Source: Mesostigma viride (taxonomy: Eukaryota > Streptophyta > Mesostigmatophyceae > Mesostigmatales > Mesostigmataceae). Taken from it: a stretch of 64,000 nt of DNA. The notes below the pieces were generated by a model. The model did not search any database. It was not told the origin of the DNA and saw nothing but the letters and a program-made list of their open reading frames with translations. Shown in pieces: positions 823 to 61,027 of this stretch. Position 1 is the first letter of the stretch; each line of letters begins with the position of its first letter. A program made the position numbers and the translations under genes. The stretch lies in contig RPFO01000579.1 in NCBI GenBank assembly GCA_009746045.1, positions 656,160 to 720,159 on the forward strand, written 5' to 3'.

Positions 823-3800
823 GTATGCGACCCCGTGATGGTCGCCAGCAGCGGCGCGAGGCTCATGGCCCCTGGGCTCCTCGAAGCCTTCAAGACCCGT
901 CTACTGCCCGCTGTAACGCTGCTCACCCCCAACCGCACGGAAGCGGAGGCGCTGCTGGGGCGGTCGCTGGCGTCGGCCAGGGACGTGGAGCGGGCGGCCA
1001 GGGACCTGGTTGCCGCGGGCGCCAGCAGCTGCCTCATCAAGGGGGGCGATGATGTGGATGAGGCGGGGGGGGAGCCCGAGGTTGGTGTCGTGGGATGCTA
1101 ATTATACTAGTGATGGTGCTAGTAGTAGTGGCGCTAGTCTATTGAGGCGGGGGGGGAGACCGGGGTTGGTGTTATAAATAATATGTGTTATACATGCAAC
1201 TGTTGTACAAATGTGCAAATGTGTCTTGCAACCGGCACAACCCTCCTTCCTTCTCATGGTGATTGCTGTGCTCAATGAGGCGGGGGGGGGGGGGGGGGGC
1301 GAGCTTGAGGTTGGTGATGTGGGACGGTCGTGAGGATAACAATGTTTCATGATGATAGCATAGTCATCGAGGGGGGAAGGGGGAAGGGGGGCGGCAGTGG
1401 GCCTGAGGTTTGGGTAATGCGCGCGATTTTTATTTTGAATTATGCATGCAAATACGTCTTGCGACCTACACGACCCAACATCACGCGTAGCAACCATGTA
1501 GGCACAGTAGCATGATATGACCCAAAGGGGAAGGGGGCGGGGGCGGGGGGTTGGAAGCCCGACATATGTGTCGTGCGATCGCTGGCGATTGGCTTAGTTG
1601 GGAGTTACGTCAATTAACTAGCATGTGGTCCCATCAGGCAGCCATTTGATGCTGATGGCCCAGTTTGGGGCTGGGACAGTGCCCAAACGGCTGCATATCA
1701 GCGACTGTGTGGTGCCTATGGGCAGCCGTTTGGGCAGGACTGCCCCCAATCATCGGCCAGCTGGGTGGGCTGGCGGCGTCTGTTTCTCCAGCCTTTCGCA
1801 CCGGCCTGCTAGCTAGCATTGATTGTGACAAATAGCTAGCATTTGTAGTAACAAATAGCTAGCATGGATAGTGACAAATAGCTAGCATGTATGTTGAAAA
1901 ATAGCTAGCATTTATGTTGTCAAATAGCTAGCATTTGTAGTCACAAATAGCTAGCATTGATAGTGACAAATAGATAGCATTGATAGTAACAAATAGCTAG
2001 CATGTATGTTGAAAAATAGCTAGCATTTATTGTAACAAATAGCTAGCATTGATAGTGACAAATAGCTAGCATTGATAGTAACAAATAGCTAGCATGTATG
2101 TTGAAAAATAGCTAGCATTTATGTTGACAAATAGCTAGCATTTATTGTAACAAATAGCCAAGCAAATAGCTAGCATTTATGTTGACAAATAGCTAGCATT
2201 TATGTTGAAAAATAGCTAGCATTTATGTTGACAAATAGCTAGCATTTATAGTAACGAATAGCTAGCATTGATAGTGACGAATAGCTAGCATTTATGTTGA
2301 CAAATAGCTAGCATTTATAGTAACAAATAGCTGGCCTGCCGTATCTTCGCGCCCCCCCACCAGACCGTTTGCGCAGCTTAGCTGTCCATACATTGGTGCT
2401 GACAGGTGCCCCCTGTTTACTCTGTTCTGTTGACCCACCTTTCGCTGGCCCCGCAACACCAGTTTGCGCAGGACTGCTGGAGTGACGGTGAGCAGGTTTT
2501 GTGGCTGACCTCGCACCGCGTGCGTTGCGGACGCCAGCACAAGACCGTGCACGGCACGGGATGCACACTGTCAAGCGCGATCGCCGCATGCCTGGCCAAA
2601 GGGCTCAGCCCGCTGGAGGCCATCGTCGCCGCCAAGACGTGCGTTGTGTCACAAGTGCCTTATTACATAGTCCTCTACCCAGTCACTTTAAATATAGTTC
2701 CCTACCTAGTGCTAAACTAATGGAAAACATCTATATGTGCCTTAAAACATAGTACCCTAAGGAGTGCTATACTACTATAATTATGCATCTCATGGCATTC
2801 TTGTAAGCATCAGTTTCCTTTTAATCATAACCTGCTCCTTTCGCCTCCTTGTAAATGTCCCCCCTTGGCAGATGACAGCTACGTGGCTGACTCCCAACCT
2901 CTTTCTTGCCTCTGTTCATTTGTCTATATTCTTATAACCACATTGTTCTTGTTCGTGTCCTCCCCTTCTTGTTTGTGTCCTCCCCTCCTTCTGGTTCGTG
3001 TCCTCCCCTCCTCGTTCGTGTCCTCCCCTCCTTCTGGTTCGTGTCCTCCCCTCCTTGTTTGTGTCCTCCCCTCCTCCAGGTTCGTGTCCTCCCCTCCTTG
3101 TTCGTGTCCTCCCCTCCTTGTTTGTGTCCTCCCCTCCTCCAGGTTCGTGTGCTCTCCCCCTCCGTTTTCTCGTCCTCCCCTTGTCCTTGTTTGTGTCCTC
3201 CCGTCGGCAGCTAGGTGGCTGACTCCCAACCTTTTGGGTGGCCTCTATTTATGCCCCTGTGTACTATGCCTACCGTCTTATACAATATTTTCATCCTCCC
3301 CTCGGCATGCCATATATACTACACCATATTCCCTATACCATGTGCCATATACCATATATATGACCTCTGTGTATATTGTTCTTGTTTGTTTTCTTCTTGT
3401 TTGTATCCTCCCCTCGGCAGCTACGTGGGCGAGGGCATCGCGCGTGCGGTCGGCGGGGGTGTCAACCAGCCACCCCCACAACGCGGGTCCACACCGCCAC
3501 ACGACAACTCACTCCGAAACGGCGGTGCGGAGCCACGGCTGGCATCCGTAAAAGGTCCCCAGCCCATCGCACCCACTACCTGGCCACCCGTCCACCGGCC
3601 CTCGAGGAAATCCAAGCCTCATGCAACCCCCCAAGGGACACCAAACTCGCGAGAATCAGCGAGTGCCAACGTGGATGACGTGGCCCGGCCGGGTCAATTG
3701 GACACCTCTTCTATTTCTGGCGACGCCACCACTTTCCCATGGATCACACAAATCGCTGCCGCGGGCCGGTGGGGCCACCCGGGTGGCGCGCTCGAGTTCA

Positions 3801-7771: not shown

Positions 7772-8690
7772 GGATGAGGGGCGCGTGTGGCTGAAGCTGT
7801 GATGCTGAAGCTGCACCATTGATGCTGCACCATCAAAGCTGGATTACTGAAGCTGGGTTACGGAAGCTGCGATCGTGATGTGGTGGTACCTTTTTGTTCT
7901 CAGATACACTCCGATATGCCTGTATACTAGTATGTGTTGATATCGGCGATTATGATCGAAACCTCATAGCGACGTCCATTGACCCGCAAGGGGTCCCATC
8001 GATCGGGGTCCCCCTTAGGGGTTGTAGAGTAAGAGCAAGTCTTTTCGGGTGCATGTGTGCCCAGTGCTTAAATATGGCACCTTTTGCCAGATTTTGTTGC
8101 CACCGTGCGGCCTGGCCGTCACTTCATGCCTCACGGATGGGGCATCGACATTGCCTAGCTGCTCCAGACTTGGATTCAGACCTGAAGCGAAAGTTGACGC
8201 TGCTAAACTTTGGTGATTATAAATGCTGCTAAATTTTGGTGATCATTGTTATATGGTTAGAATGCAAGGCCCGACCCTTGTCCCATGGCCCTGGTATGCT
8301 TGCTGCGGCCTGGCGCTACCTGTTGTGGGATCCTCCACCGAGCGGACACTACATTTCGCCACCCCGGAAACTACACATATGCAAGAATGTGGTTCCGTCA
8401 ATACGGCAGGGGGTACAAAATTTTCCACCGTTCATACATGGGGTTCCTAGCATATGTTATTCAGATTTTCGCCATTGGACAAAAATCAATCGGGCCTGAA
8501 CAGTTGCTGAACTCGGAAGTCACTTCGTCGATATTGCGTTCCGGTATATATGACGAACGCTTTGCTGCATGAGTAGTGTAGTTAGGTTTTCTAGACTAGA
8601 TAGCTTAGAGTGAGCTTAGTTCGATTACGCGGCTTCGCCCACCTCCGCCCATCCAGCAAGGAATATGTGCTACATGATCTCCCAACAACA
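7772..8690. other. Downstream of ThiDE; no gene seen
   Basis: After the TAG stop there is a short GATGCTGAAGCTG-type direct repeat (about 7790-7870), possibly part of the 3' UTR, then unremarkable unique DNA. Short open frames here have no codon pattern or splice context that I can support. Confidence 0.4.
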
Positions 8691-8905: not shown

Positions 8906-8990
8906 TATATTAATGATCTCCCAACGGAGTCGGGGTAAAATTGGCTCTTTTTTAGCAAATTTAGCAAATTAGCAAATTAGCGGAAGGCGG

Positions 8991-12412: not shown

Positions 12413-12765
12413 ATCATTCATTCATTCATTCATTCATTCATTCATTCATTCATTCATTCATTCATTCATTCATTCATTCATTCATTCATTCATTCATTCA
12501 TTCATTCATTCATTCATTCATTCATTCATTCATTCATTCATTCATTCATTCATTCATTCATTCATTCATTCATTCATTCATTCATTCATTCATTCATTCA
12601 TTCATTCATTCATTCATTCATTCATTCATTCATTCATTCATTCATTCATTCATTCATTCATTCATTCATTCATTCATTCATTCATTCATTCATTCATTCA
12701 TTCATTCATTCATTCATTCATTCATTCATTCATTCATTCATTCATTCATTCATTCATTCATTAGA
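12413..12765 (+). repeat. (CATT)n microsatellite, about 350 bp
   Basis: This is an essentially perfect tetranucleotide array. It is followed directly by the TCGTGCTCCCGTTGGGGAGT end of the CTCCGTTGGGAG repeat family. Confidence 0.97.
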
Positions 12766-18126: not shown

Positions 18127-18882
18127 CTAAGCATTACGAGGACCTCGACTTGAGGGCGATCCCGTCTGGAAATCTGAGGATACTTTCTTGATATCCCTGA
18201 CAGCATTTGGATCTGGGCAGAGCCAAGGGAAGAACCATCTTAAGAGGCTCATGCCAGTGTTGATTTCTTTCGCCCGTTTCCGGCGCTGTCGCTCCTCCTC
18301 CGAGATATCTGAATTTTCGTATCGAGCAAGGTCTTGCCAAAAGCCGAGTACATTTCTAGACACAGCCACTACACCCATAAATGCAATTATCCACATGCTC
18401 TGATTGCAGCCAATGGAAACATAAAGGCATGCAGCAACGAACAGAAGCGAGCTTGCTGCCATCATCGAGGCAACTGGAAATCCAACAACGTACGGAAACT
18501 TCAGCAAGTACCTCAAACACTCTTCCTCGCTCCACATCGCTGTATACATCATGGCAATTGAGCAGACTACCACTGTCTGACCAGCGTAGCCTGCAGATAC
18601 GGCGCATAAAGCCACGTAGACATTCCACGGGATGTTGGAAGGAACCAGCGGGGGGCGTGACGTCTGCATCATCTGCAGGCCAATGGCCAATATCAGCGCG
18701 GCGACAACTCCCGAATTTGTGTGAACAGTATTCATAAGGTCTTTTATTTTCGCGCCAGGAGACCTTTCCTCAACGACGTCCAATGCAATGCGATTCATAA
18801 CCTTGAATTGAGCGACTCCGACCATGATGAATATTGAAGCCTGAATGGCCAAGGTTACCGAGTGAAGTTGCGGCCTCGCCAA
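18127..18882 (-). CDS. Intact multi-pass membrane protein, family not recognised
   Basis: This is an uninterrupted 251-residue frame with no sign of an intron. It has about five hydrophobic segments: residues 7-25, 58-75, 87-112 (NVYVALCAVSAGYAGQTVVV), 129-157 (VVGFPVASMMAASSLLFVAA) and 163-180. A charged C-terminal tail of about 70 residues follows (DISEEERQRRKRAKEINTGM, then LLRWFFPWLCPDP). The N-terminus is short and mostly outside the membrane. The frame is clean, unlike every other long frame in this repeat-rich region, and base use is near 50% GC, lower than the exons elsewhere in the window. It could be a real intronless gene, a retrocopy or element cargo. I recognise no family. Confidence 0.55.
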   Translation of the reverse strand: MARPQLHSVTLAIQASIFIMVGVAQFKVMNRIALDVVEERSPGAKIKDLMNTVHTNSGVVAALILAIGLQMMQTSRPPLVPSNIPWNVYVALCAVSAGYAGQTVVVCSIAMMYTAMWSEEECLRYLLKFPYVVGFPVASMMAASSLLFVAACLYVSIGCNQSMWIIAFMGVVAVSRNVLGFWQDLARYENSDISEEERQRRKRAKEINTGMSLLRWFFPWLCPDPNAVRDIKKVSSDFQTGSPSSRGPRNA

Positions 18883-19019
18883 AGAATTGGTTTCCGAGTC
18901 GCCAAAGGATGGATTGCGGTCGCCAAAGGATGGATTGCGGTCGCCAGAAGTTAGTTTGTGGTGCTGGGCGGAGGGTTACAGCACAAAAACATTAGTTTCC
19001 TGCACCTTGGCGATGGAGT

Positions 19020-19235
19020 TTTATCAAGGAGACAACCAGCGCAGGCCAGAAATCGGGAGAATCCGGACCATGGTAGCTCGAGCCTGCCGTTATCTTGTCC
19101 GCGTGTTCGAGTCGTTCAGGATGATGAAGATGAATGGTGATGGAAATGTGTAGCCTTGTGCATTGAAATTATGGCTGGCTTACGTGTAGAGCGACTAGAT
19201 GACCTAGACGGTGGGGCCGGAAACAGCCTGCGTTG
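19020..19235 (+). mobile_element. Truncated TCAAGGAGACAACCAGC retroposon
   Basis: The constant end is intact (TATCAAGGAGACAACCAGCG). The match to 7013-7330 stops after GGGGCCGGAAACAGCCTG. GTTTTAT occurs immediately before the element and again 10-15 bp after it, so a short target duplication is possible. Confidence 0.8.
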
Positions 19236-21200: not shown

Positions 21201-21517
21201 TTTTCCATTTGCGGGTATTTCCTCGTAAATGGTGGGAGAGCGATCGCAGCAATGGTGCTCACCACTAGACACTCCCGGCCAGTTAGGCTCGAAACACACG
21301 CCCTGATCAAGCATGCTGTTTCCGGCCCCACCGTCTAGGTCATCTAGTCGCTCCACACGTAAGCCAGCCATAATTTCAATGCACAAGGATACACATTTCC
21401 ATCACCATTCATCTTCATCATCCTGAACGACTCGAAAACGCGGAAAAGATAACGGCAGGCTCGAGCTACCATGGTCCGGATTCTCCCGATTTCTGGCCTG
21501 CGCTGGTTGTCTCTTTG
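21201..21517 (-). mobile_element. Full-length retroposon-like repeat with 12-bp target-site duplication
   Basis: The 317-bp element is bounded by a perfect 12-bp direct repeat, AACATAGAGTGG, at 21189-21200 and 21518-21529. In minus orientation it is the same as 7013-7330. With no inverted ends, a 12-bp target duplication and family members truncated at one end only, it behaves like a non-LTR-mobilised short element. The constant end, TCAAGGAGACAACC on the opposite strand, would be the 3' end, reading ...GGTTGTCTC(C/T)TTGA with no poly(A). Confidence 0.9.
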
Positions 21518-21534
21518 AACATAGAGTGGACACT

Positions 21535-21625
21535 CACTTCCATATTCCTCAACGACTCCAGAATTGTGGACAAGATAACGGCAGGTTTGAGCTACCATGG
21601 TCCGAATTCTTCCGCTGGTTGTATC
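21535..21625 (-). mobile_element. Diverged second copy of the retroposon end, in tandem
   Basis: CCTCAACGACTCCAGAATTG..., GATAACGGCAGGTTTGAGCT and CCGCTGGTTGTATCTATAG follow the corresponding segment of 21201-21517 with about 20% mismatches and an internal deletion. The younger element inserted beside an older relative. Confidence 0.75.
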
Positions 21626-21814
21626 TATAGTGATGGACTTTACAATGAATCTATTTTAACAAAATCGTTGCATGAGCCGTTAATGAATATCCATTATCAA
21701 GTAATAGTTGTCAAGATCACTCAAAATTAAGTGGGACAAGTCTACTTCAAGGTCTTGCACTTAGTAAGTACGTAAGTACTTGCGTGTCAAATGTTAATCA
21801 ATGATTTTAATTAA

Positions 21815-42870: not shown

Positions 42871-45856
42871 ATGGCAGCGCTGCTCCAAGCCAGGTCGGTG
42901 TTATCATGTGCTCATTTGCAGTCCTCATTTCCACACGGCAATCGCAAGCTTGTCCGGGCTGTCGCTGCCATCAACCGGACTTCCAGTGCGTCCCCAAATG
43001 CCGCAACAAATTGCCGACTGGATAGCCCCCCCGACGTGGCGCGTGGTAAAGGGCAGCTTGATGTCGACACAGAACCTCGGCCAGACGCTAAGCAATCCGG
43101 CAGCGTGCTCAAACACGCTGCTCTGGGGTTATTCACAGTAGGCTGCAGCCTTCAGGCCGGCACAGCATTGGCCGATGCAGGGAATTCGCTAACTCATGGG
43201 TTGTCGCAGGTACGTCTCGTGATCTGAATTCACGACATCTGGGCCTGGCTAGGACGCAAGCAATGCAATGATGTCTGCAGTTAGTTCTGACATGTTACAA
43301 CTTAAAGACACGAGCTCGTGATCGTAATGCATGCTCCCATGTACACCGTTGGATCGTCTGTGCGCTGTGCGTTGCCAACTGCAGGCGCTGTCCTTAGGTT
43401 TCCCAGCGCTCAACCCCGAAAGTACGGACTTTGTACGGACGATTGTCTGGCTCGACTTCTGGCTTGCCGTGCTGTTCAACGTCATCGCTCCCCAATGGAT
43501 TTTTGTGGGTGCCCTCAAGGCTGATAATGGGACGTTGAAAAGGGCAAACATCGCCTATTGGCAGGTTAGTTGATCCGGGAAAAAGTTATCAGATAAAAAA
43601 ATGCCAACCAGCCTGCTCTAAAGTTTGCAGAATAGCCTGTTAATCTACTAGCCTACTTATGATCTCTCTGTTTACCCTTAATCTACTAGTCTAGTCCATT
43701 AATCTACTAGCCTACATAGTCTCTCTGTTTACCCTGGGTTCAGTCATGACGATGGCATTGGCCAAGTACTGGCAATCTCTGCACGTTGTGACTGTGGTTT
43801 CAAACTGTCTGTCTGAGGGACTACGTGTGACAGGGTGAGATACGCTGGCACATGAGTTACAACGAGGCGCCGTGTGCACTATAAGTAAGTAGGTTTCTTT
43901 AGCTTGCGTTGTCCAAAGGGATGCTGCTTTGTCTTGGGGTCATAACAACTGGCATGTGGAACGTACTCGAGCCTCAGTGTGTAGCAGGTGCTTATGCATA
44001 CCGCCATCTGGGCACCGCTGCGGAAGGCTCCTACCGCTGCACAAGCCAAGCCTTTGATACTCTGACTCTGTCAGTTTATTGGTGGGAGACGAATGGGGTG
44101 AGAAGCCGGCATAGTGAGTGGGCATTTGGTCGGTGGGAGAGTGGGCAAGTGACAGATCAGGTGCGTGGCTGTGTGCAAGTGGGCTAGCATGTATCGCGCA
44201 TGCAGCATGCTCTACGGGGTGATGGTTCTTTTTGCCCATGCTTATGGGGAGGCAGACCCCTGGACAGCGGCTTGCCTCTGGTCCTCTGACAAGTGCGTGC
44301 ACGCACCTCCACACGCTAGTGCACACCGGAGCATGACACACTGTGTCGAGGTTGGCATGCTGCTACATGGAAGTGAATTGATCGAATTTCAGTTCGTCGA
44401 TTCAATGGTAGTGGGCAGTTATCCTCTAGTTTTTCAACATGTCTTCTCTGTTGTGCCTCTGGTCACCTTGTTCTGCACGGGCATGCTCCCTCATTGAAAT
44501 CGACGTCTACTCCCCTGACTGGCTAACAAAAGGCGATTAGATTACTTCTATGCTTTCTTTTTTTACACCTCTGGCTTCCCATATGTAACCAGGGCGCTCC
44601 CTCTTGATGACCGATCCGTCTACTGCCCAAAAACCATTAACGAGATCTCAAGTATTTCTTCATGAAAGTTGCCCTCCTTGGGGTGTCCTGGCTCTTTGCC
44701 ATGACAGGCCTGCTCCCTGTTCATGGTCACCGTCTAGCTCCCAACAACCGATAACGGGATCACATCTATACATACTTTGCCCTCCTGGCGTTCTGGGTGT
44801 CTGGACCAGGCCTGCTCCCTGTTCATGGTCACCGTCTACCTCCAAATCGGTGGCTGGTCGCCCGGCTTCAACACCGAGCTGGCGAGCGTGCTGGTCACGC
44901 CGGTCGCGCTCTGGTGGTGGAAGGACCTGGGGGAAGAGATCGATGGCGCGGATGACCCCCTGACCGCCACCTGGCGCACCTGGCGCAACGTGGCCACGGT
45001 CGTGTGCCTGTGGATTGCCGCCTCACAGGTGGGCATGGTGGCCCGGGTTGGGTAGATAACGTCGCAGATTGTGGCGCGTGGCCATGGAGGTGTGCCTGTG
45101 GATCAATTGCCGCCTCGCAGGTGGGCCAGCATTCGTAATGCCCAGGTGTTAAGGCGATGTGACGCATGACCGCTCGCATGTCCCTGTGGATCGCACCTTC
45201 TCGAGTGGGCATCGTGGCCCGGGCTGGGGTAATAGTTACAGTGATGGGCTTGGGTAAATAACTGCCAGTCACGGGCTAGCGGGCGTCCACTATAGCTTGG
45301 CAAGGCAACCTCCGTTCAGGTGATTGGCATCTTTCGTGATTCTTTTTCTGTACAGCGTACATGTCTTGGTCGTTGCATCGGGTCTGTCCTATTCGTTTAT
45401 CTAGTACATCAGAAGGGTATACACCTTATTTGAAATATGGTAGCGTACTACCCACGCGTAGGATGGAATGTCACTTTGCCAAAAGCTTACAAACCCTCAA
45501 CCCTGCCCATGCCAACCCCACCACCACGGCCACCACCCTGCCAGGTGTTCACGGGCAATCAACAATGCGCGCTCGAGCCTTCATTCGCCGGCGGGATCGG
45601 CGGACCGATCCTTGCAAACCCGACGTGCGCCGCATGGCTCGAGCCCGAGTACTACTTCAACCAGCTGCTGCACCCCTGGCTGGACCCTGGCGCAGCACGG
45701 GCGGCCGCGCAGGTGGGCCTGGTGGTCTATGCGGGCCGCTGGCTGCAGCTCTTGGCATTTGAGCTGCCCGCGTGTGGGCGGTTCACGTACAAGAATGAGC
45801 GATCGTCGTCGGTGTGGCTCACGCGGGTGCTCGGGTTCCTGGGCAAGGACCAGTGA
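42871..45856 (+). CDS. Plastid-targeted DUF3177-type multi-pass membrane protein
   Basis: Exons 42871-43209, 43385-43564, 44810-45028 and 45545-45856 are all phase 0 and give 349 residues. The start MAALLQARSVLSCAHLQ leads a Ser/Arg-rich, acid-poor transit-like region. Then VLKHAALGLFTVGCSLQAGTALADA looks like a thylakoid-transfer or first membrane segment ending in an A-x-A site. The mature part has the cyanobacterial DUF3177 pattern: IVWLDFWLAVLFNVIAPQWI, NIAYWQACSLFMVTVYLQIG, LVTPVALWWWKDLGEEIDGA, a third helix (VATVVCLWIAAS), paired cysteines, WLEPEYYFN, and a last helix (GLVVYAGRWLQLLAF). The biochemical role of the family is unknown; a thylakoid or inner-envelope location is inferred. 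The gene is head-to-head with the PH gene. Introns and 3' flank carry copies of its exon edges. The family call is from memory of its motifs. Confidence 0.78.
43600..43735 (+). repeat. AATCTACTAG/TCTCTCTGTTTACCC tandem repeat
   Basis: AATCTACTAGCCTAC(T/A)TA, (A)TCTCTCTGTTTACCC occurs twice with an intermediate partial copy. It lies in intron 2 of the DUF3177 gene. Confidence 0.8.
44476..44740 (+). repeat. Three decaying copies of the 5' edge of DUF3177 exon 3
   Basis: The true edge is at 44807-44838 (CAG then GCCTGCTCCCTGTTCATG, GTCACCGTCTA). The nearest copy at 44705-44736 is identical over 32 bp but runs into a TAG. The next, from 44590, and the next, from 44476, are increasingly diverged. 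Spacing is 102, 115 and about 114 bp. The filler between them (CTCCCAACAACCGATAACG, TTTGCCCTCCTGG...) is itself repeated. Confidence 0.93.
45091..45240 (+). repeat. Two copies of the 3' edge/donor of DUF3177 exon 3
   Basis: The true edge is GTGTGCCTGTGGATTGCCGC, CTCACAG|GTGGGCATGGTGGCCC (donor at 45029). Copy 1 ends at 45120 (TGCCGCCTCGCAG|GTGGGC) and copy 2 is at about 45180-45235 (CCTGTGGATCGCACC, TGGGCATCGTGGCCCGGGCT). Copy 1 keeps a perfect donor but its reading frame is shifted by an insertion. Confidence 0.93.
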
Positions 45857-45908
45857 AAGAATTGTGTACTTATAGAAACTGATAGCATGATGAAAGAGCA
45901 TTATGCAG

Positions 45909-46092
45909 CGTGTCTGGGCAAGGACCGATGAAGGGAACAAGACAAGGGAGGAGAGTCAGGCGTAGGGAAGAGAGAGCCCTCAATGTGAGGTTTCTGAGCA
46001 CTTAGTCTGGTGACAAAGTTGTAGAAAGTAACCAGGGAGGAGGGAGCAGCATGCATAGTGTAGGGGTTCATGGGCAAGGACCAGTGAAGCGG
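45909..46092 (+). repeat. Two copies of the stop-codon region of the DUF3177 gene in its 3' flank
   Basis: The end of the CDS (TTCCTGGGCAAGGACCAGTG, A at 45837-45856) recurs at 45911-45930 (CTGGGCAAGGACCGATGAA) and 46067-46090 (TTCATGGGCAAGGACCAGTG). Here the duplicated boundary is coding/3' UTR, not a splice site. Confidence 0.88.
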
Positions 46093-47297: not shown

Positions 47298-50200
47298 CTA
47301 CGCCTCATTGACCGAAAAAGCTGCGAGCTTGCCCACGACTGACGCATGCACACCATCCATCACCTCGGCAAGACCCCCGGGGGCATCAGCAACGTCACCG
47401 CGTGGGCGTGCCGGGGGCAAACTACAGCCAGCGTTGTTGCAGCCAGCACAACTGTCAGCTGGCGTCGATCCATGATCACGGGCCTCCACGTGCTCTCGCA
47501 CCGCCTCCAAGTCCACAAAGGGCTTGTTCATGCCCCCTGGCTCTCGAAGTGCAGTGTGGAGGAAGGGCATGAAGCGGCTCGTGGCGTTGCCGTCGCCGTA
47601 GAGCAGCGTGGGCTCGAACCGCTTACCTGCGTGCGGGGTGGCCGCGGAGATGGTGACAGCATGGGAAAATGGGAGAGGATGAGAGGGTCGTACACTGAGA
47701 AAAAGGAGAGCAGCGCGGGCTCGAAACGCTTGCCTGCGGGACGGAACCAACCAAAAAAACGAGAGGCGGAAAGAAGCCAGAGTTGCAACTAATAAGCATG
47801 AAGAAATTACATCACGGGACATGGCAATGGAGCGTCCTTCCTAAAATATAGAGCGGACGACGGTGGCGAGGATGAGGGATGGAGCAGTACCAGGCCGGCA
47901 GGATAAGATTAAGCACAACGAGGGGGAAACCGAGGCGCTTACCCGGCAGGGAAGAACAACCCGGCAGAATGCAGAACGGAAGGCAGCCACTCTCATGAGG
48001 GCAGGGTAAAAACAGGCATTCAATTAGTCAAGGCATGCAAATCGAAGACGAATTCAGCTAAGCGAGGCAGTCGATCAGACTGCGCAGCCGACGTTACCTA
48101 TATCGGCCTCCCCTTCAGCCGAAAGCTTCATAAAGCAGCCCCTCACCAGGGGATTACTCCAGGAGTGGATTACGTTACTTCTATCACGAAATTCCCTCTT
48201 CTGCGTTAACACCAAGAAAAAAAAAAACACCACAGCTCAGAGAATATAACTCCACGATAAACCTCCAGCGTGCCTATAGGGCGAGGAGGTCAAGTAAATG
48301 CACAGCTCGCCACAAAATTCTCCCTGAGCGCCGCCCCCCCCACAACGAATGCTCATGCAAGAACTCTACAACGACCTTCAGCCTAAACTGATAGTAGTAT
48401 ACGTTATGTTTATAGTCTACAGTCACAGGGCCTCGCGCTTCTCAGTTCTCACCAAAATTGTCTTTCAGCGCCGCCTCCAGATTTGCCTCCGTCACGTTCT
48501 CCAGCCTCATTAACGACGCCCGCGCGCCCGCCCGGTTGGCCTGCCTGCCCCCGATGCTAATCGAAGGCACCCCCAGCGCGCATGCCTCCCTGGTCCCTGC
48601 GCTACTGTTGCCCACCATGCACCCGCAGCTGCGCATGAGGACTGCAAACTCGGGAAACGGCATCGTGGTCACGGGGCGGATGAGCTGCTGCGGCGCCGCC
48701 ACCCGGCCATCCACTGCCAGGAGGCCGTTCCCTCGTCCCCCCATGACATCTCTCCTGTCCGCCACCATGTCGAGCACATTTTCCCCAGAATCGGGGCCCC
48801 GATCGCGGCTCTCTTGTGCCCTGTTGGAGTCTCCCTCGCCCGCCCCAGTAATGGGCACATCTTTCCAGTCCAACCCCGAGTGGTCATTCCCTTCCGCACC
48901 CTGGGCGCACACATCCTGATCATGTCCCCCCAGATTGCCATTCCCTTCTGCACGGAAGGGCGCAACTCTCCCGGCCTCCCCTGTGTGTACATCGCTCTCG
49001 TCTGCTCCCACATGGCCGTAGTTCCATACCGATGGACCCGGCACCATGCCCGGCATCAAGTAGCCACTGGCCACGTCCCCACTGGCCAAGTTCCCAATGG
49101 CCAGGTTTCCGCTGGGCCCGTTTGCGCGGGGCATGTCTTCAGCGGGCACATTTCCCCCGGGCACGTTGATCCCTGGGATAGCACCATGAGATGCCGGGGG
49201 TTCCATGTCTGCCGCGCCGTCGAGGCCCCCACTTTCTGAGCTGGAGCCTTTCTCCCGCCTGGGACCGGAATGCTGCGCAGATTCTGGGTGGTACCCGTGC
49301 CCACCCCCATGTGGGTTCCGTGGAGCGCAATCATGGGCCGAGCGCCGTGACGGCTGCAAGAAGCGATGAATCTCCGCGATCAGCGCCTTATTCCCAGGGT
49401 CCGTGTTGGGATAGAATAGGAGCGTGCGGAGGCCCATGCGCGTGGCGACGGTCAGGATTATGCGGAACTCCCGCACGGACGCCTCCATGTCGTTCGTGTC
49501 CGGGTGGTGCTGCACGAGGAGGAACTTGCGCGGCTCCACACTGTAGTGCTGCAGGACCTCGTCCTCTGATCGGCTCATCGGCAGGTGGACGTTGCCCAGC
49601 AGGACGTCGTAGGAAGGGCACCCCGCCAGGCACACGCGCGACGGGTGCTCGCCCAGCTGGAGCACGCGCCGGCGCGCCTCCTCGTTGCAGACCAGGTGGA
49701 AGTGGGCCAGCTTTGTGATCGCGTGGCGGAGGACACCGTCGGCGCTCCCGGATAGCTCACCGCCCTCCAGGTGGAGCACGCGGATGCCTGACAGGGAGGC
49801 AGCGGAGACGGCCGCGAACGCATCGTAACGGTCCCTGTTTGGGGGGGGGGGGGGGGGGGGGGGGGCGTGTTACATGAATAAAATGTTACTACTGTACATA
49901 TGCGGTACATACACTGCGCATATACTGTACATAAACTGTAGTATTTGGATGAGATCAAATGGATAAGATGTTAATGTGTTCATGTTAAAGAGATTTGTGA
50001 GACTTGTTGTGCTTTGGTCATGGTGGGTGGGAAGGAGGGGGGGGGGGGGGAGTGGCATGGAGGGAGAGTGTGGGCATAGGGGTGTTGTCTCCTTGATAGG
50101 GGTGTGCTCATATTTATTATCAATTAGTGGTATGTTCTCGTGATGATGGTAATACTCTCATGGGTGGGGGAATATGAGAAAACGAGGATTGACAGCGCTA

Positions 50201-51772
50201 TGTTCTCATGGTAGTGATAGGGGTGGGGGGAATAGGAGGAAATGAGGTAATTCCTGGGTAATTAGGGTTATAAGTACTATGTTCTCATGGTGGTGGTATG
50301 GTATTGGTGAGCCAAGGGTACAAACGTGTTCCGAGAAGAGGCAGGAAGATTGTGTTCAATGGGATCGATGTCAGTCGATCTGTGGGGGCAGGGGGGCGCA
50401 TTTACGGATGTGAGGGGCGGTGCGGTGAGTTGGTCAGAAGCAATAAGACTTGCTTAACCCTTGGACTTTGTCCAACTCCCCCCTATAAACAGGGGCCAGA
50501 TGGAGTAGGTGTTGCTTCATAGGAGTTGCTTAACCCTTGCACTGAGTCCGAATTCCCCTCTGCAGATAGGGGCCAGATGGAATAGGAGTTGCTTAAATGG
50601 CGAGACAAAATGTAGTGTGGGGTAGCGGAAATAAATGCAGCTGAGCTGTCGCTAACAGATGGTGACAATACCACAAAAAGCTACTTGCGTCGTGACGACG
50701 CTTGGAGCTGGCTCCTGGGCACTGCGATGGCATCATGATTCATACATTATTCATTGCTGATGTGAGCTCATGATCCAGCCGAATCGATGACTTTGCTGTG
50801 ATTAAACGGCCGACTCAAAACTATAGCTCATTGATTGAACAAATGACTTCGCTGTGATTGAATGTGCTCAATTAAGCCATAGCTATGATGAAACGAGCAT
50901 GGGGATAACCTCATTCTAATCCAGTTGGGGCCCGATTGAATAGATGCTAGCAGTTAGCCAGCTGTTGTTTGCATGCACCAGGGTGAAGTAAGATGAATAA
51001 AAATAGAAACAGTTGGGAACTTACTGATAGTGTATAGGTGCCTGCGGTCGACTTATAAACATACTAATGAAACATACTAATGAAACGTACTAATGAAACA
51101 TAAAAACTTGCATGCGGACCAGCTCGAAGCATATACATGAAATTGTGACAATGGACACCTGTCGCTGCTGGAAGGCTCGTGTGATAGAGTGTAATCAATA
51201 ATTAGGATATAGTGCAATCATCAATTAGGGTGCTACAAATGCACATTCCATGAGCATTAGGAGACTCTGGTACACTAAGCACACAGCTAGCAGGGGACAT
51301 TAGGACAAGTGGATTGATAAATCAGTAGACCATCTACCCATAGACAATAGCATCGTCAAAGGCCCTGTGGGCACTTAATGGGCATAAAGCCCCGGTTGAG
51401 GATTGCAGCCTAGCTGGGCGATAAAAATAGCATTATCTATGGGGACACCTACCCGTGGACGACGACAATGTCCGGCCTCAGCTGCCGGAAATTGGACGAG
51501 AGTTTGATCATGGCCATCGCGACACTGTCCACCATGGACTCGGAGGAGTCGCCCGCGACCAGCGTGTTGGTGGCGATAGACACGGGATATCGGGCCCGAA
51601 TCGTCTCGACCGTCCAGCCGAACTCCATGAGGAGGTGGCACCCAATCACCAACAGCTGCAGCTCCACCTTGCTGTCCTCATGCAACGCGGCGACGAGCGG
51701 CTCGAGCTTGGACCAATCCGCCCGGTTGGACGTCACCACGCACACCCGGGAACGCTCGTGCTGCTGGCCCAT
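47298..51772 (-). CDS. UDP-N-acetylglucosamine 2-epimerase, NeuC/GNE type
   Basis: Exons 51772-51453, 49834-48453 and 47626-47298 join in frame (676 residues). Motifs in order: VCVVTSNRADWSKLEPLVAA (N-terminal Rossmann start), LVIGCHLLMEFG, DIVVVHGDRYDAFAAVSAAS, VLHLEGGELSGSADGVLRHA (the family's H-x-E-G-G-E...RHAITK block), LGEHPSRVCLAGCPSYD, LLVQHHPDT, then MPFPEFAVLMRSCGCMVGNS, SAGTREA, PSISIGGRQANR and LLYGDGNATSRFMPFL. These enzymes epimerise UDP-GlcNAc and release ManNAc, the first step to sialic-acid-type sugars. A Gly/Asn/Asp-rich insert of about 200 residues (48.7-49.3 kb) splits the two Rossmann lobes, and about 85 extra residues follow the usual C-terminus. The start was chosen at MGQQHERSR to fit the family; the frame stays open to another ATG at 51916. 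Confidence 0.9.
47715..47960 (-). repeat. Two copies of the 5' edge of epimerase exon 3
   Basis: On the minus strand the true edge (CGCAG then GTAAGCGGTTCGAGCCCACG, CTGCTC, from 47630 down) recurs ending near 47715 (CGCAGGCAAGCGTTTCGAGC, CCGCGCTGCTC) and at about 47930-47955 (CCGGGTAAGCGCCTCGGTTT). The outer copy is the more damaged. Confidence 0.85.
49841..51452. other. Intron 1 of the epimerase gene
   Basis: A poly-G run (49841-49865, poly-C on the sense strand) abuts the exon 2 acceptor. Other contents: a second G run at 50036-50050; GTGTTGTCTCCTTGAT, an end of the retroposon family, at about 50081-50098; a TGTTCTCATGGT repeat (50130-50300); a two-copy 75-bp tandem duplication at 50447-50600 (GTTGCTTAACCCTTG..., AGGGGCCAGATGGA); and ACTAATGAAAC(A/G)TA repeats at about 51060-51105. 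Confidence 0.75.
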
Positions 51773-53400: not shown

Positions 53401-53695
53401 CCCGAGCAAATGCTCATGGGTACATTATGAGAATGGCTTTCTCATAGCTGCGACTATGGTACCTTGGAGCGGGTATATGGCATCGCTTCAAACACGTGGT
53501 CCAAAAATGGGGAACGCCCTGGCATTCTGCGAGAACTTGTAGAAACAGCAAACAGCGGGCGTATGTTCCGGTTGGACGCCTATGGTAACCTGGACAGTGT
53601 ATACGTCGTCGCTGGCTCCCTGCAAACACAGTGCCCTGCCCACCCATACGTGCATGTGCACATGTGGCATGTGCGCATGCACACGCACATGCACT

Positions 53696-54060
53696 ACACG
53701 CACACGCACACGCACACGCACACGCACACGCACACGCACACGCACACGCACACGCACACGCACACGCACACGCACACGCACACGCACACGCACACGCACA
53801 CGCACACGCACACGCACACGCACACGCACACGCACACGCACACGCACACGCACACGCACGCGCACGCGCACGCGCACGCGCACGCGCACGCGCACGCGCA
53901 CGCGCACGCGCACGCGCACGCACACGCACACGCACACGCACACGCACACGCACACGCACACGCACACGCACACGCACACGCACACGCACACGCACACGCA
54001 CACGCACACGCACACGCACACGCACACGCACACGCGCACGCACACGCACACGCACATCTA
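53696..54060 (+). repeat. (CACACG)n hexanucleotide array with a CGCACG core
   Basis: About 360 bp of CACACG units have an internal block of pure CGCACG (53860-53920). It alternates purine and pyrimidine throughout, so Z-DNA formation is plausible. Open frames on both strands (His-Thr, Cys-Val and Arg-Thr dipeptides) are artefacts. Confidence 0.97.
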
Positions 54061-54062
54061 GA

Positions 54063-54325
54063 GTCCCTCCCTCCTCCCTCCCTCCCTCCTCCTCCCTCCC
54101 TCCCTCCCTCCCTCCCTCCCTCCCTCCCTCCCTCCCTCCTCCCTCCCTCCCTCCCTCCCTCCCTCCCTCCCTCCCTCCCTCCCTCCCTCCTCCCTCCCTC
54201 CCTCCCTCCCTCCCTCCCTCCCTCCCTCCCTCCCTCCCTCCTCCCTCCCTCCCTCCCTCCCTCCCTCCCTCCCTCCCTCCCTCCCTCCCTCCCTCCCTCC
54301 CTCCCTCCCTCCCTCCCTCCCTCAC
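54063..54325 (+). repeat. (CCCT)n array with periodic CTCCTCC interruptions
   Basis: The tetranucleotide run is interrupted by one-base deletions at about 54074, 54088, 54138, 54190 and 54241. The last three are 51-52 bp apart, indicating higher-order duplication of a block of about 51 bp. Confidence 0.95.
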
Positions 54326-54540
54326 ACACACATTCTTTTCATGGATGGGCATCTGATTTCCCATATTAGAGTGGGCATAAGCAAGAGTTTGTTTAATACC
54401 TTAACTCCTCACTTCATTTTGCAAATGTGAGTCAACTTTTCAGAATTATAATAATGGAAATTCCATTAGCTTACCAATCAGCCAATGTTTTCTAATGCAC
54501 ACGCGTGGCCACCAATGACCAACGACGAAGCAAGCAACGG

Positions 54541-56206
54541 CTACAAGTCATCGAAGAGCGCCTCATTGCCACCGTCATCATCGTCGTCATACCGCTTCCC
54601 CATGACCCCAATGAACTGCGAATAATCCTGCCCACCACTAACATCTGCGCTGCCATCATCCCCATCGTCCTTCTTGACATCCCTGTCTCTCCGCCGCGCC
54701 CGCTTGTCCTTAATCCCGACACCCGTCTCGCTCTCGCGGCCCCTCTCCTCGCCACTGGCCCCTCCCTCGCCCTCCGTCCCCTCCAGGGAATCCGATGACG
54801 GGGGCCGCGCCACGCCCCTGCCAGCTGTCACGATCGTGTCCCTCGGCACGAGCTTGACGGCGATCCGGCGGCGGCGGTTGAGCGTGTCGGGGTCGGCGCC
54901 CTCAGGGAGGACCTCGACGCGGCAGGGGCTGCGCAGGCGAGGCACAAAGTATTCGCCGCCGGCCTCCAGCTGCATATACCGGCGGGGAAAGAAAAAACTA
55001 GGCAAATCGGCAGGTTAAGTAGGCCTGCTACTAAGGTTAAGGTCAAAGTAAAGTTAAGGTTCAGGTGCAGGTTCAGTTTACCTAGACCGGCTTCTAACCG
55101 CAAACTCAAGTGGTTCCTTTCTGAGATAATTTGTCATACACAAGAGATGAAGCACGGTTACTTCAAAAGTGATGAACATGTTGTCGGAAAGGATAAGGGT
55201 GCCGCCATACGAGTTCACAGAACAACGAATCCATTCGTCAAACCTTGGTACTGAATATTTTCTAGGCCATACAAACCCAAACCCATCCTCGGCACCAGTC
55301 ACATGAGCATGAGGTAGAGTAGCATACTGATGAGAAACAATCACAATCACATTATAACCATGACACTTACCACCATTTACTAACCGGCCGACGCATAGCC
55401 ATCTCATCCTCATTTTAAGTATAATATTCACATCCTCGGCGGAGACCCCTTCTCAGTACCACACCATTCGACACTGTTATTACAATACCATGCCATTCGA
55501 CACTGTTATTACAATACCATGCCATTCGACACTGTTATTGCAATGATTGTTGTCATACTTACATCTTACATCCTCGGCGGGGACGTAGCCGTCCAGCTCT
55601 CACCCCATCTCCATACCATACTGACTATGACGATAGCAAATTTAAAACTAATGCTAAATATACTTTCGCTAGTACTGCTAAATATACTTTCACTAGTACT
55701 GCTAAAGATACTTTCACTAGTACTGCTAAATATACTTTCACTAGTACTGCTAAATATACTTTCAATACCACCGCTAAAATCACTACTGCAAATAATACTC
55801 ACATCCTCGGCGGACACGTAGCCGTCCAGCTGGCACCCCATCTCGACAAACATGCCGCCCCGGGGCTTGCCCGCCTCGAGCTCGTCGCTCTCGCTTCCGT
55901 CATCCGCCACAAACTTCTTCACCTTGGCCGCATGCACCTGTCCCTCCTCCAGATCCTGCCCGACAACATGTGTGGAGACATGAGACAAGCAAAGGGGTAA
56001 CAAGGGGCTTGAACAAGTCACAGGTAGACAACAAGGGACGAGGGACGAAAGGCCCCTTGCCTCATCCTGTGGGGTTCCGACCGCGAGCCCCATTGAGTGA
56101 CTCAGTAGAGGCAGAATGATCAACAAAGAGGGTCAGGGGATACCTGGCCCGTGGCCAGATCCTGCGTGTCCTCACGCAGGCACAAAATAATAATAATAAT
56201 AATAAC

Positions 56207-56238
<32 letters not shown>

Positions 56239-59200
56239 CAACACACAGTAGAAACAAGTATGAGTTGACAATGACAGCTGTATGATAAGTAAACACAGCA
56301 GAAACAACAAGGAAACAAGGTGATTAAGTCACAACAGTTACCGAAGGGCTCATCATGGGGTTTACCAAAGGGTGAGACATCAAGCCTCATGCAAGTCCTT
56401 CAGGACCGCACGTGCGGAAATACGCAGAGTACAAATTGCTTCAGGACCGCAAGTGTGAGGCATGAAAAGGTGCACAAAGTCACATACGAACGTAATCAAG
56501 GAATAGATTGACGTCATACAGGGTCAAAAGGCACCTGACATTCGCACCAGTCCTGCGTGTCCCTCGGGGACACTGGAGTCATGAATTAACAGCTAACACA
56601 CAGGCACGCAATAAGACACCCATGACCAGATGAGCAAGTAAACAATTCACTAAACAACTGACGTAATAACAAACTGACTAAGTCAATTAACTGACAAAGT
56701 CACAAATCAACCAAGTCCCCCTCGTAGTGGGCCCACACTCCACGCACAAGCACAGAGTCAGAACTCAGGCGACAAGGAACATTCCCAGTCATGAGCCGCA
56801 ACTTAGCAAAGTTGTTAACCTACGAACCTACGAAAGAGCATAGGGATCTAAAGACACTTACCACCCACCAGCCATCCAACCAACCATCTCCCCAATCCCC
56901 CCCCCCCCCCCCCCCACTCACCACCGCATGTACATTCGCACACATGCACGGATTAATTAACGCACACATATGATCAGCCACCAGCCATCAGCCACCAGCC
57001 ACCACCGTGTCTAAGCACACACACATGCACGCATGCCCCCCCCCCCCCCCCCCCCAAAGTTCTTGGAAAGAAACAAACTAGGCACCTTGAGGCGGAAGCG
57101 CCGCTGCTCCACCTTGCCGCCGCTCTTGAGGGAGAGCCGCAGCGTCTTGCGCCGCGCGTCGACCGCGATCACGCGCACACGCACACGGGTGCCGCGCTCG
57201 AGCCGCCGATCCGTCGGCTTACGCTCGCCGATCTCGCTCACGTGGAGCAGCCCGTCCTGTTATAGAGGGGATGGGCCCACATGCGCATATAAAATGGGTT
57301 GTTTCCCGTGTCAATGGCATGAATACACCCAATACCCATGTCACTCAGGTAGAGAGCCCGTCCTGTTAGAGGGGATGGGTCGATATGCATGAGGCAACCA
57401 TGAGGCAATAATGAGACCACTACTTATATATAACAATACACAACTACTTCTAGAGGCAACAATGAGACCACTACTTATATAACAATACACAACTACTTCT
57501 AGAGGCAACGATGAGACCACTACTTATATAACAATACACAACTACTTATATAGGCAACCATGAGACCACTACTTATACATAGCAATACACAACTACTTAT
57601 ATAGGCAACAATGAGACCACTACTTATATAACAATACACAACAAATACTTATACAGGCAACAATGAGACCTTTACTTATATATGTGTGTATCATGGGTTA
57701 ATACGTGTACCGGTTGAGAACCTTTTCAATGCAAATGACGACGATATAAACCGATCTCGCTCACGCGGAGCCAGCCATCCTGCTATAGAAAGAATGGGTC
57801 AATATGCGTGTACAGTATCATCCAGCGCACAGCTTGTAATGACACCGACACAAACCGATCTCGCTCACGCGGAGCCGTCCTGTCGTGATTCCAATATTTT
57901 GATAGTTTGTCATAAGGATCGCTGCGATGCAGATGTTCAGATGTTCAGATATTCAAAAGTTCAGAAGTTCAGAACACCTGGGAATTGCTTTACTACAATC
58001 GGCCTGGCAGGTGCGGCAGGCAGTCCTATTATATTCATGGGTCCTATTAAACTTTAGGGATCCTACTGTGTTGAATGGTCCTATTATAGTAGCAGTGCAT
58101 GAGTCCTACCATATTACATGGGTCCTATTTCTAAATGGGTCAATGCACGTATCGTTCGTTGGAGCAACGTTCAGGCCAACAGAAAACTGGGTGCTGCAAA
58201 TCTCTCTGTTGGCTCGGTTCACCAATCTCACCCACACGCAGCAGCCTGTGCTTTGCCGATTGGATGAATCGTTTGCAACTACGCCCAAGCAAGCAGACCC
58301 CTGACCCCATGGAGGCCGCCCTCCGGGAGCTAGAATAATACATAGAATAACTATTTGAATAATCATTGATAGCCCAGGGACGGTCACACAAACGAATTGC
58401 AGCGCGCTGGGTGTCGCAACGCCAATCTCAGTCACGGGGAGCTAGCCGTCCCTGATTGGGCGGGCGGGCAGCACATACTGGATAGATTGTGGGGATAGGG
58501 GAAGGTTAGTCTGTATACGGGTGTTTATTTTGTGCTCCCTACCGCCACACGAATGGACCCTGTTCGTCACCTTAACAAGAACGTGGCATCTGGGCACTAG
58601 CAAACCGTCCTGTTAAGATGGGCGGGCAGGCACGTGAAAGGATTGTCGCGAAGCTTTGTTGTAAGCTACTGTGGCATATAATGTTTATTGCAGTACACAG
58701 TGACTAAGCGACTGTTAGCGGATAGGGGGACGCTGTAAGGAAGCTCTGAAGCTTCAATTTTTCTTTCTTACCTAAAAGCTTTTTCATTCCATTCACAGTA
58801 TAACGCCCTTTCCTGCAGGATAAGGGGGACCATGGACATGGATCCATTAGAAACGGTAAGTAGGACCTACCATGTACAATGGCGAGGGGAGGGAAGATTG
58901 CTGTCCTGTTACCGCGGCACAAAGCACCGGATGGTGGCTCAGGATGCTGCCTCGCCCCCCTCCCAAAGCCCGAAAAAAAATAAATAAAAAATGATTGACA
59001 ATACGTATAGTAGCAGTAATGACGATAGTAATAGTGAAACAAAGAATGTGATAAAAGTAATAACAGGAATCTAGATAATAATATTAGGCATCCTTCAACA
59101 GGACATACTTAGGGCTTACGGAGTAGACATATTTGAAATTTTGAACTATGATGGTCCTGCACATGGCAACGATACGCATGACCGAGAAGAACCGGCCCGC

Positions 59201-61027
59201 AGTCCTATTCGATACATGAGCTATGTGAAGCGGCGAGGTAGATATGGTAGTTCAGGGGGTTGCCTTGCGGGGCCGTAGGGCAACCCACCTGGCTATTCAA
59301 TACACGAGCTCTTTGTGGCGGCGACCCATCTCGTCGTCAGAAAGCAACAACCGTGAAAACGCTAGCTGCCCAAATCCGAGATTCCGCGGAACACAGAAAG
59401 TAAGAAAACCTAGAAGCTACCAGCAAGGAATCGAACGTAGGACCTGTGGCATGATTTCGCGGCTGTGTGAGTCTCCCGATCCGAAGGCATCTCACTTAAC
59501 GTGTCGAAACACCCCAACTGCGAAAAACCTCTTTACCGGAGAGGGGTGCCAATATGTCCGATATTGCTGAATCTATAGAAGATGACTCACCACTAGACGT
59601 AAGTGCGCAGGTGTACTACGCACGGACCTACACGATATTCTAGTATCGCCGAAGTAGGCAGGTTGACCACGGCTGGAATCTGGTTTTAGTGTAACGTACA
59701 AACCTAGAGGACGTAGCCGAATCTAACTAATACCAACCGATCTTACATCGTCGTCAGAAAGCAACAACCGTGAAAACGCTAGCTGCCCAAATCTGAGATT
59801 CCGCGGAACACAGAAAGTAAGAAAGCCTAGAAGCTACCAGCTAGGAATCGAACATAGGACCTTTGGCATGATTTCGCGGCTGTGTGAGTCTCCCACCTGG
59901 CTATTCGCTACACGAGCTCTTTGTGCGGTGACCCACCTGGCTCGCGCCGACGTCGACGATGCACCCAAACGGGAAGCACGCGCGCACGCGCCCGTCCAGC
60001 ACCTTGCCGCGCCGGATCTCCTCCAGAGGGACACGGTCCGGCCCCTCACGCGTGATTGGCCCAGACTCCTCTACCCGTGCGCCAGCATTACTATCGTTGC
60101 CCTGCTTTCCGCCAGCATTATTGTTGTTTTTTACCTGCCTGGAGCCGCCTTGACGGGGGGGGGAGGAGGAGGCATTACCGCTGTCGTTGGTGGCGCCGTC
60201 GGCAGAGCCTGATGCTTTCGGGCGGCCCGCTGCGTCTTTTTTCTTGTTGTTGGGCTTGGCCTTGGGGGGGTTGTCGTCAAAAAGGGAGATGGTGTACCTG
60301 CAGGGGGGGGTGGGTGTGATGGTGGCATGTGTGTGTGCGTGTGGGGGGGGGAATCGATGAATTTCAAAAGGGGAGGAGGATTGTTCATGCAACCCCTTAG
60401 GGCACGACGAGCACAGCAACTTCCAGTCGGCCACTGCAGCGGTTGCCAGTATCCATGTTCAAGCAGCCACCAGGCGCTTGAGTGCGCGCCGAGGCTATGC
60501 TGCACGCTGAAGCTAGAGTGCACGCCGAGGCACGGGGTGGAGTGGCAGAGTGTGCGCCTGCAAACACGGCCTATATATCCCGACAGTTAGGGCGTACATT
60601 GAGCGTGGGCACAGGTATCATTACAGAGATATCCCGGGGACCCTGGGGCATTCATCATAATAGATTGAAGGATACGGGTTAAGTTGGACACGAAAAGGAG
60701 GAATGGGGCTGCCGGTAACGTGATAGCAACCTTTTAAATGTCGCAGCAGCGACGACAGTCGAGACCGCCGGCTGGCCTGGCTGGGACTTACCGAGTGCCA
60801 CGTACGGGTTTTGCCCCTGCAGCGCTCTTCTTTGCGTCGCTGCCGCCAGCACTGCAGATGCACCGGAGAGGTGCCTCGGTATGCTTCCGTAGGGGGGCTG
60901 TCAGCTGTCTGCTGGAGCTTTTCACTGCCCGGCCCAGACTAGACTTGAGCTTGGAGGGGGCCGCTGTCAAACAGCCAACTTGAGCAGATGCAGCATTTAG
61001 AAGCCCAATTGGATTCGCTGGGGCCAT
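54541..61027 (-). CDS. Chloroplast S1-domain RNA-binding protein
   Basis: Five exons join in frame with GT-AG introns: 61027-60792, 60297-59937, 57256-57086, 55955-55803, 54969-54541 (449 residues). Exon 1 is a transit-peptide-like region, MAPANPIGLLNAASAQVGCL then TAAPSKLKSSLGRAVKSSSR (Ser/Ala/Lys-rich, no acidic residues early on). Exon 2 has a low-complexity linker and begins the S1 fold (LEEIRRGKVLDGRVRACFPF, GCIVDVGAS). Exon 3 completes it (DGLLHVSEIGER...LERGTRVRVRVIAVDARRKT, LRLSLK). Exon 4 carries GGMFVEMGCQLDGYVSAED, possibly part of a second, degenerate S1-like unit. Exon 5 ends in a charged, acidic tail (GKRYDDDDDGGNEALFDDL). S1 domains bind single-stranded RNA; a role in plastid translation or mRNA stability is inferred. 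It could be a plastid ribosome-associated S1 protein or an rbcL/psb mRNA-binding S1 protein. Confidence 0.88.
55427..55612 (-). repeat. Two copies of the 3' edge of S1-protein exon 4
   Basis: On the plus strand the true edge reads CACATCCTCGGCGGACACGT, AGCCGTCCAGCTGGCACCCC (55799-55840). It recurs at 55563-55605 (ACATCCTCGGCGGGGACGTA..., TCACCCCATCTC) and, shorter, at 55429-55449 (CACATCCTCGGCGGAGAC). The donor base pattern is kept in each (GAGGATGT on the sense strand). Confidence 0.9.
55640..55795 (+). repeat. 25-bp tandem repeat, about 5 copies
   Basis: TGCTAAATATACTTTCACTA, GTACT and variants, in the intron between S1 exons 4 and 5. Confidence 0.9.
56184..56238 (+). repeat. (AAT)n microsatellite
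   Basis: About 17 AAT/AAC units, intronic in the S1 gene. Poly-C runs lie at about 56897-56916 and 57037-57055. The latter is poly-G on the sense strand just after the exon 3 donor. Confidence 0.95.
57338..58640 (-). repeat. Six or more decaying copies of the 5' edge of S1-protein exon 3
   Basis: On the plus strand the true edge is GATCTCGCTCACGTGGAGCA, GCCCGTCCTGTTATAGAGGG, GATGGG (57226-57272). Copies lie at 57345-57375 (AGCCCGTCCTGTTAGAGGGG), 57748-57800 (CGATCTCGCTCACGCGGAGC...CTATAGAAAGAATGGG), 57858-57888 (same start, CGTCCTG end), 58221-58260, 58420-58460 (CAATCTCAGTCACGGGGAGC) and 58603-58635 (ACCGTCCTGTTAAGATGGGC). Spacing is irregular, 90-400 bp. Confidence 0.88.
57415..57690 (+). 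repeat. About 50-bp tandem repeat, five to six copies
   Basis: AGGCAACAATGAGACCACTA, CTTATATAACAATACACAAC, TACTTCT. It starts directly downstream (on +) of the first exon-edge copy and appears to be a secondary amplification within one echo's spacer. Confidence 0.92.
59205..59936 (-). repeat. Copies of the S1 exon 2 donor edge and a 145-bp duplicated tRNA-like segment
   Basis: ACCCACCTGGCT (plus strand; the exon 2 donor edge at 59931-59942) recurs at 59284 and 59892 followed by ATTC(A/G)(A/C)TACACGAGCTCTTTGT. A third, weaker relative of that filler lies at 59207-59235. Between them 59327-59475 and 59750-59892 are about 93% identical and carry GAGATTCCGCGGAACACAGA and, on the minus strand, a GTTCGATTCC B-box-like motif. 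Confidence 0.85.

Follow-up and report, generated by a model that had tools for sequence, protein, structure and literature searches.

The closest described systems are the 'mirage' minisatellites of lancelets, whose name reportedly goes back to a paper on lancelet Adh (Nucleic Acids Res 2002). As described in two publications (PMC3087553, PMC3902484), these arrays occur in Adh3, the globin genes BflGb6 and BflGb9, TnC, and PGBD5, where tandem repeats lie over exon-intron boundaries at both 5' and 3' edges, with several units per array and units of about 10-160 bp. In these lancelet arrays, AG or GT is kept in many, not all, of the copies, alleles differ in copy number (6 vs 3 in BflGb6), and splicing is normal (PMC3087553, PMC3902484). 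Among the literature matches listed, judged by titles and the openings of abstracts and with subscription literature thinly covered, none dealt with boundary-spanning tandem repeats outside lancelets.

The exon-edge copies analysed here, termed echoes of the master copy at the intact edge, belong to this known kind of phenomenon, here seen in a new lineage and with its profile quantified; the suggestion in the preliminary description that the pattern might be undescribed had to be given up in light of the lancelet arrays. As in lancelets, the unit spans the exon-intron boundary (in full tandem form here in the fresher cases only), donor edges (15 of 70) and acceptor edges (9 of 71) are both affected, and the nearest copy lies at a distance comparable to the lancelet unit. 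Unlike the lancelet arrays, which are known from single genes, the algal case comes from a survey, is mostly diverged, and includes two stop-codon edges. In the literature found, we met neither such commonness in an alga nor a nearest copy whose exon part rarely exceeds 45 bp.

Two further comparisons are relevant. Ordinary intronic minisatellites occupy the same introns with similar units; unlike them, the unit here includes coding bases, which keeps the master intact and makes it a reference for the copies. Rogers, and Gao and Lynch, are said to have proposed intron gain via tandem duplication of AGGT-containing exon sequence. Tandem duplication involving splice signals is common to both situations, whereas in the present case existing introns lengthen and the copies lie beside their own edge.

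Window and genome sample

The window, i.e. the whole stretch of 64,000 nucleotides of Mesostigma viride DNA that was analysed, corresponds to contig C1813:656160-720159 of a 440-Mb genome comprising 2243 contigs. Nine introns in four genes were defined via reading frame and GT-AG, which gave 18 splice edges. Exon-only 40-bp edges were aligned to three kinds of target: the intron in question, the reverse complement of that intron, and 100 dinucleotide shuffles. Echo coordinates were counted at a score of at least 14, the first six of at least six being listed for the S1 acceptor. The DUF3177 gene was identified by a Pfam match; the thiamine (ThiD/ThiE-like), epimerase, and S1 genes carry putative names read off their translations.

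The wider sample was assembled from exon matches to kinesin, dynein, and myosin in the same genome, plus the window. Exon matches entering the pairing numbered 86 of 129 for kinesin, 36 of 44 for dynein (one dynein exon matching best to DHC2 of structure 8glv, from Chlamydomonas), and 18 of 22 for myosin. Introns of these families were obtained by pairing consecutive exons that covered adjacent profile positions, with splice sites chosen by frame, motif, and length using generic splice-site weights; 30 of the 43 adjacent kinesin pairs were joined. Introns with a join score of 3 or less were left out (7 of 70; 3 of 30, 3 of 28, and 1 of 12 in three pairing rounds). The total including the window was 72 introns in 39 stretches, with a median intron length of 620 bp. 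Windows of 30 bp were each aligned to the corresponding intron, and a score of at least 14 was taken as an echo. Low-complexity windows were left out, and 141 of 144 edges were retained at offset 0.

Echoes in the window

When exon-only edges were aligned to their own introns, 5 of the 18 splice edges, in three genes, beat all 100 shuffles, namely thiamine donor 1080, DUF3177 acceptor 44810 and donor 45028, and S1 acceptor 57256 and donor 55803; the reverse-strand scores of these five were 8-10. The features are as follows.

1059..1088, + strand: donor edge of the thiamine gene (ThiD-like), exon end 1080, master copy; exon-only echo score 18 vs shuffle maximum 13
1143..1573, + strand: thiamine donor edge, three echoes, at 1143-1172 (score 26), 1275-1316 (19), and 1542-1573 (16)
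1081..2471, + strand: thiamine intron 1, boundaries by reading frame and GT-AG
1810-2332: 23-bp minisatellite inside thiamine intron 1
3201..3218, + strand: short echo of thiamine acceptor 3421, mostly splice signal, score 14
44807..44846, + strand: DUF3177 acceptor edge, exon start 44810, master copy
44472..44744, + strand: DUF3177 acceptor edge, three echoes, at 44705-44744 (score 36, 95% identity), 44588-44630 (19), and 44472-44513 (15)
44989..45034, + strand: DUF3177 donor edge, exon end 45028, master copy
45077..45212, + strand: DUF3177 donor edge, two echoes, at 45077-45126 (score 33) and 45171-45212 (19); spacing 92 and 84 bp
45833..45857, + strand: DUF3177 stop-codon edge, master copy
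45908..46088, + strand: DUF3177 stop-codon edge, two echoes in the 3' flank, at 45908-45932 (score 15) and 46064-46088 (23)
48303..48478, - strand: epimerase, stop-codon edge at 48443-48478 with an echo at about 48303-48338, score 18, reverse 8
49835..51452, - strand: epimerase intron, neither edge echoed
55798..55842, - strand: S1 donor edge, exon end 55803, master copy
55422..55609, - strand: S1 donor edge, two echoes, at 55565-55609 (score 35) and 55422-55467 (23)
57228..57266, - strand: S1 acceptor edge, exon start 57256, master copy
57335..58618, - strand: S1 acceptor edge, at least six echoes, at 57335-57371 (score 23), 57751-57789 (28), 57855-57887 (22), 58219-58252 (16), 58420-58451 (19), and 58599-58618 (14)

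The preliminary description had placed echoes in all four genes. Splice-edge echoes stood in the thiamine, DUF3177, and S1 genes, and the DUF3177 families were recovered independently in a second display. The epimerase gene retained its stop-codon echo only: at its single mapped intron, neither donor nor acceptor was echoed in the shuffle test or in the scan at a score of at least 14, and the donor edge scored higher on the reverse strand than on its own (14 vs 10). Two thiamine acceptor echoes, at 1728 and 3201, scored just 14 with 6-8 exon bases each. For acceptor 3421, the exon-only score was reached by 14 of 100 shuffles and was not significant, and the score rose to 19 vs a shuffle maximum of 11 when 15 intron bases were included. 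The scan at a score of at least 14 gave no echo at the acceptor at 823 and none at the S1 start codon; the S1 stop-codon edge was not echoed either.

Stop-codon edges bore echoes in two of the three genes tested in the window (DUF3177 and epimerase). Among light-harvesting genes elsewhere in the genome, 0 of 11 stop edges echoed, three of the 11 having a common protein tail. A light-harvesting protein matches green-lineage chlorophyll a/b proteins; its top match is a multi-domain LHCI chain of entry 9vfj, and the best single-domain matches include siphonaxanthin complexes. Together with the dynein match, this suggests a green alga. Contig C1457 (2339969-2879318) carries four light-harvesting genes whose match scores are identical, and a fifth lies on C1459.

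Other repeats were also seen in the window. A direct repeat in S1 intron 2, at about 59300-59480 and 59700-59900, was spotted by eye; it includes a stretch similar to a tRNA B box, so that it may be a tRNA-derived SINE. A dispersed repeat at 18866-19150 and 21347-21655, in opposite orientations, has translations sharing a run like NQRRPEIGRIRTMVARACRY and is possibly transposon-derived. Very long simple repeats occupy 34733-36656, 12414-12762, and 53679-54323 (an 8-bp unit about 242 times, TCAT 87 times, and GCACAC and TCCC arrays).

Rates, form, and decay of copies

Across the 72 introns, the first 30 exon bases echoed in the adjoining intron at 24 of 141 edges. The counts then fell inward, to 10/142 at 15-45 bp, 3/140 at 30-60 bp, 2/138 at 45-75 bp, 0/136 at 60-90 bp, and 0/134 at 90-120 bp inside the exon. 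Only 2 of 408 windows at least 45 bp inside thus echoed in their own intron; the exon interior was not copied with the edge, as whole-exon duplication would require. On the reverse strand, echoes numbered 0/141 at the edge, 1/142 at offset 15, and 7/841 across intron windows. Against the introns of other genes, 2 of 1647 comparisons reached the threshold. Where both introns flanking an exon were known (59 edges), the echo lay in the adjoining intron in 12 and in the opposite intron in none. Several statements and expectations of the preliminary description are upheld by these counts: duplications cross boundaries on the same strand and leave exon interiors nearly free, acceptors are echoed upstream and donors downstream, and hits exceed those to other genes' introns.

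Chance or convergence of splice signals was ruled out by the counts in other genes' introns and on the reverse strand at edges. Introner-like elements, in which related intron sequence would recur between genes, were likewise not found, only 2 of the same 1647 comparisons (30-bp exon and intron windows, sampled introns only) having reached the threshold. Capture of intron sequence by exons was ruled out as well: some echoed edges encode conserved motor-domain residues (e.g. the TGSGK edge on C1635), and copying therefore ran from exon to intron.

By family, edge echoes numbered 15/63 in kinesin, 2/38 in dynein, 2/22 in myosin, and 5/18 in the window. An earlier kinesin-only run using 40-bp segments and a score of at least 16 gave 10/54 edges, 0 on the reverse strand, 0 in exon interiors, and 68/432 in intron interiors. 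In the full sample, windows inside introns echoed in 126 of 841 cases, vs 24 of 141 at edges (p=0.53). From the edge inward, the intron-side counts were 20/112, 16/122, 15/128, 18/130, 19/133, 20/118, and 18/98, a rate of 12-18% by position. The echoing fraction of interior windows was 0.23 in introns with an edge echo and 0.11 in the others, a difference that was not significant (p=0.077).

The nearest copy lies at a median distance of 116 bp (interquartile 88-160); a quarter lie farther out, up to 409 bp, with intermediate copies possibly missing. Fresh cases are full tandem units in which the intron part is copied too, including an identical unit of 70 bp (23 exon and 47 intron bases), units of 83-88 bp in three successive copies, and another of about 97 bp. 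The threefold array of 83-88 bp units lies in a kinesin intron on C1502; its unit spans the donor, and the copied donors are identical. Among the 20 arrays in which at least two copies occur, at least 6 are clearly regular in their spacing, with successive distances of 70/70, 88/83/83 (initial part), 92/84, 102/115, 117/106, and 126/119 bp, and others are not. In many older copies, the intron part is no more similar than random introns (0.58 +/- 0.07), and their tandem origin is therefore invisible.

Decay with distance, also claimed beforehand, holds as a trend (29 concordant vs 5 discordant copy pairs) and not universally, the top-scoring copy of the S1 acceptor not being the closest one. 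Divergence from the master was 0.162 in exon parts and 0.353 in intron parts, a ratio of 0.46 (51 echoes, 61 introns) that is subject to saturation and to the choice of copies on their exon part; a ratio of 0.5 is expected if the exon-side master alone is frozen. Mismatches at the first, second, and third codon positions numbered 63/349, 65/361, and 92/350 (p=0.021), counted in the copies past the identity cut, about 53 of the 63, and a third-position excess is expected if the copy drifts everywhere and the master solely at synonymous positions. Both results agree with a master held constant and a copy free to drift.

One duplicate contig pair was compared directly. The small contig segment C622:16550-22450 and C2:6329400-6335200 are 99.96% identical over 4.9 kb and then diverge abruptly; no array differences were found across those 4.9 kb. 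The pair may be a recent segmental duplication or a redundant contig.

Explanations and exon reach

The arrays are very probably the product of local direct tandem duplication throughout introns, with some units straddling exon edges, i.e. the 'mirage' pattern in a new lineage. Direct duplications in tandem, usually between some tens of bases and about 230 bp long, would arise throughout introns and in some flanks, and some of the duplicated units would reach across an exon edge. Selection would preserve the copy still attached to the remaining exon while the outer copy would turn into intron and decay, and repeated rounds would leave an array of fading echoes, downstream of donors and upstream of acceptors. 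This reading covers the observed echoes with their strand and side, the tandem form of the fresh cases, the decay, and the equal rate inside introns, in view of which the edge copies appear to belong to a general process of tandem duplication. It would involve splicing at the innermost site, neutral copies, and an origin by slippage or unequal exchange. Since stop-codon edges in the window echo too, though light-harvesting stops do not, splicing is not required. Counterpoints to a simple tandem model are the limited reach into exons, the older copies, the low dynein and myosin rates, and the 11 silent light-harvesting stops.

The reach was measured as the exon length b in the nearest copy at 32 echoed edges, with a median of 27 bp and a 90th percentile of 44 bp. 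Lengths above 45 bp occurred in 3 of 32 (54, 57, and 69 bp), vs about 20 expected under uniform placement of the observed units, which points to some filter or breakpoint bias absent from that simple model. With units of at most 130 bp the count was 2/19 vs 9.3 expected (P=0.00015), and with units of at most 100 bp 1/12 vs 4.5 (P=0.015). Decay could shorten b in old copies, but high-scoring cases are just as short (23, 28, 37, and 38 bp). Tentatively, and with some doubt, a sharp filter may operate, such that boundary-crossing duplications survive mainly with less than about 45 bp of exon even though units are about 115 bp.

A mutational bias added to the general process, with breakpoints clustering 15-45 bp inside exons, e.g. 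via chromatin or RNA-DNA hybrids, is a variant of the tandem-duplication explanation and not its opposite. It would account for the shortage of long exon parts, and at the splicing-free stop-codon edges of the window b was 18, 24, and 37 bp, values that lean toward breakpoint bias over selection against splice competition, though they come from two genes only. The same limit would follow, however, if long exon copies were selected against, and when farther copies are counted, 8 of 51 exceed 45 bp (up to 92 bp, mostly with low scores). On balance, such a bias seems rather unlikely.

The preliminary description had favoured a ratchet acting specifically at exon boundaries, where duplications would be promoted or tolerated so that introns lengthen from the ends. 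The clear edge echoes agree with it, as does the greater length of introns with an edge echo (median 833 bp, n=27, vs 552 bp, n=45; p=0.016), although longer introns also offer more room for matches. The ratchet is nevertheless improbable: intron interiors echo as often as edges, and the stop-codon edges of two window genes echo as well. Because a frozen master keeps edge copies detectable for longer, equal rates would suggest that edges are, if anything, less prone to duplication.

Function of the copies, as alternative exon ends or decoy splice sites under selection, would agree with the GT or AG kept in 48 of 63 copies and with the third-position excess of mismatches, the latter being equally expected from synonymous drift of the master. 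For 45 of the 48 with an intact GT or AG, however, use of the copied site would change the reading frame or introduce a stop (the stop check being approximate at acceptors), copied donors that retain GT score below their masters (2.50 vs 4.10, n=32), and scores fall with distance. Judged from sequence, the outer copies appear to decay with little sign of use, and a functional role is very improbable. Hardly credible is a remnant of intron birth via tandem duplication of an AGGT-containing exon stretch (the Rogers model), for which tandem duplication and splice signals are both present, but which reportedly predicts that the duplicate of an exon edge sits at the opposite end of the newly formed intron, whereas the nearest copies lie at a median of 116 bp from their own edge in introns of median length 620 bp, often with several decaying copies per edge.

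With local tandem duplication as the preferred explanation, 'mirage' arrays are extended beyond lancelets. If about one in six exon edges of the genome bears decaying copies, as sampled, the alga would offer a large natural experiment in stepwise intron lengthening beside a frozen reference, with many tandem-duplicated splice sites whose use by the spliceosome could be read from RNA. The limit on exon reach is a specific puzzle concerning splice-site competition or duplication breakpoints. Should the filter be real, such duplications would be a readout of the exon length at which a copied splice site becomes a harmful competitor; should the same limit hold at stop codons, they would instead be a readout of breakpoint positions.
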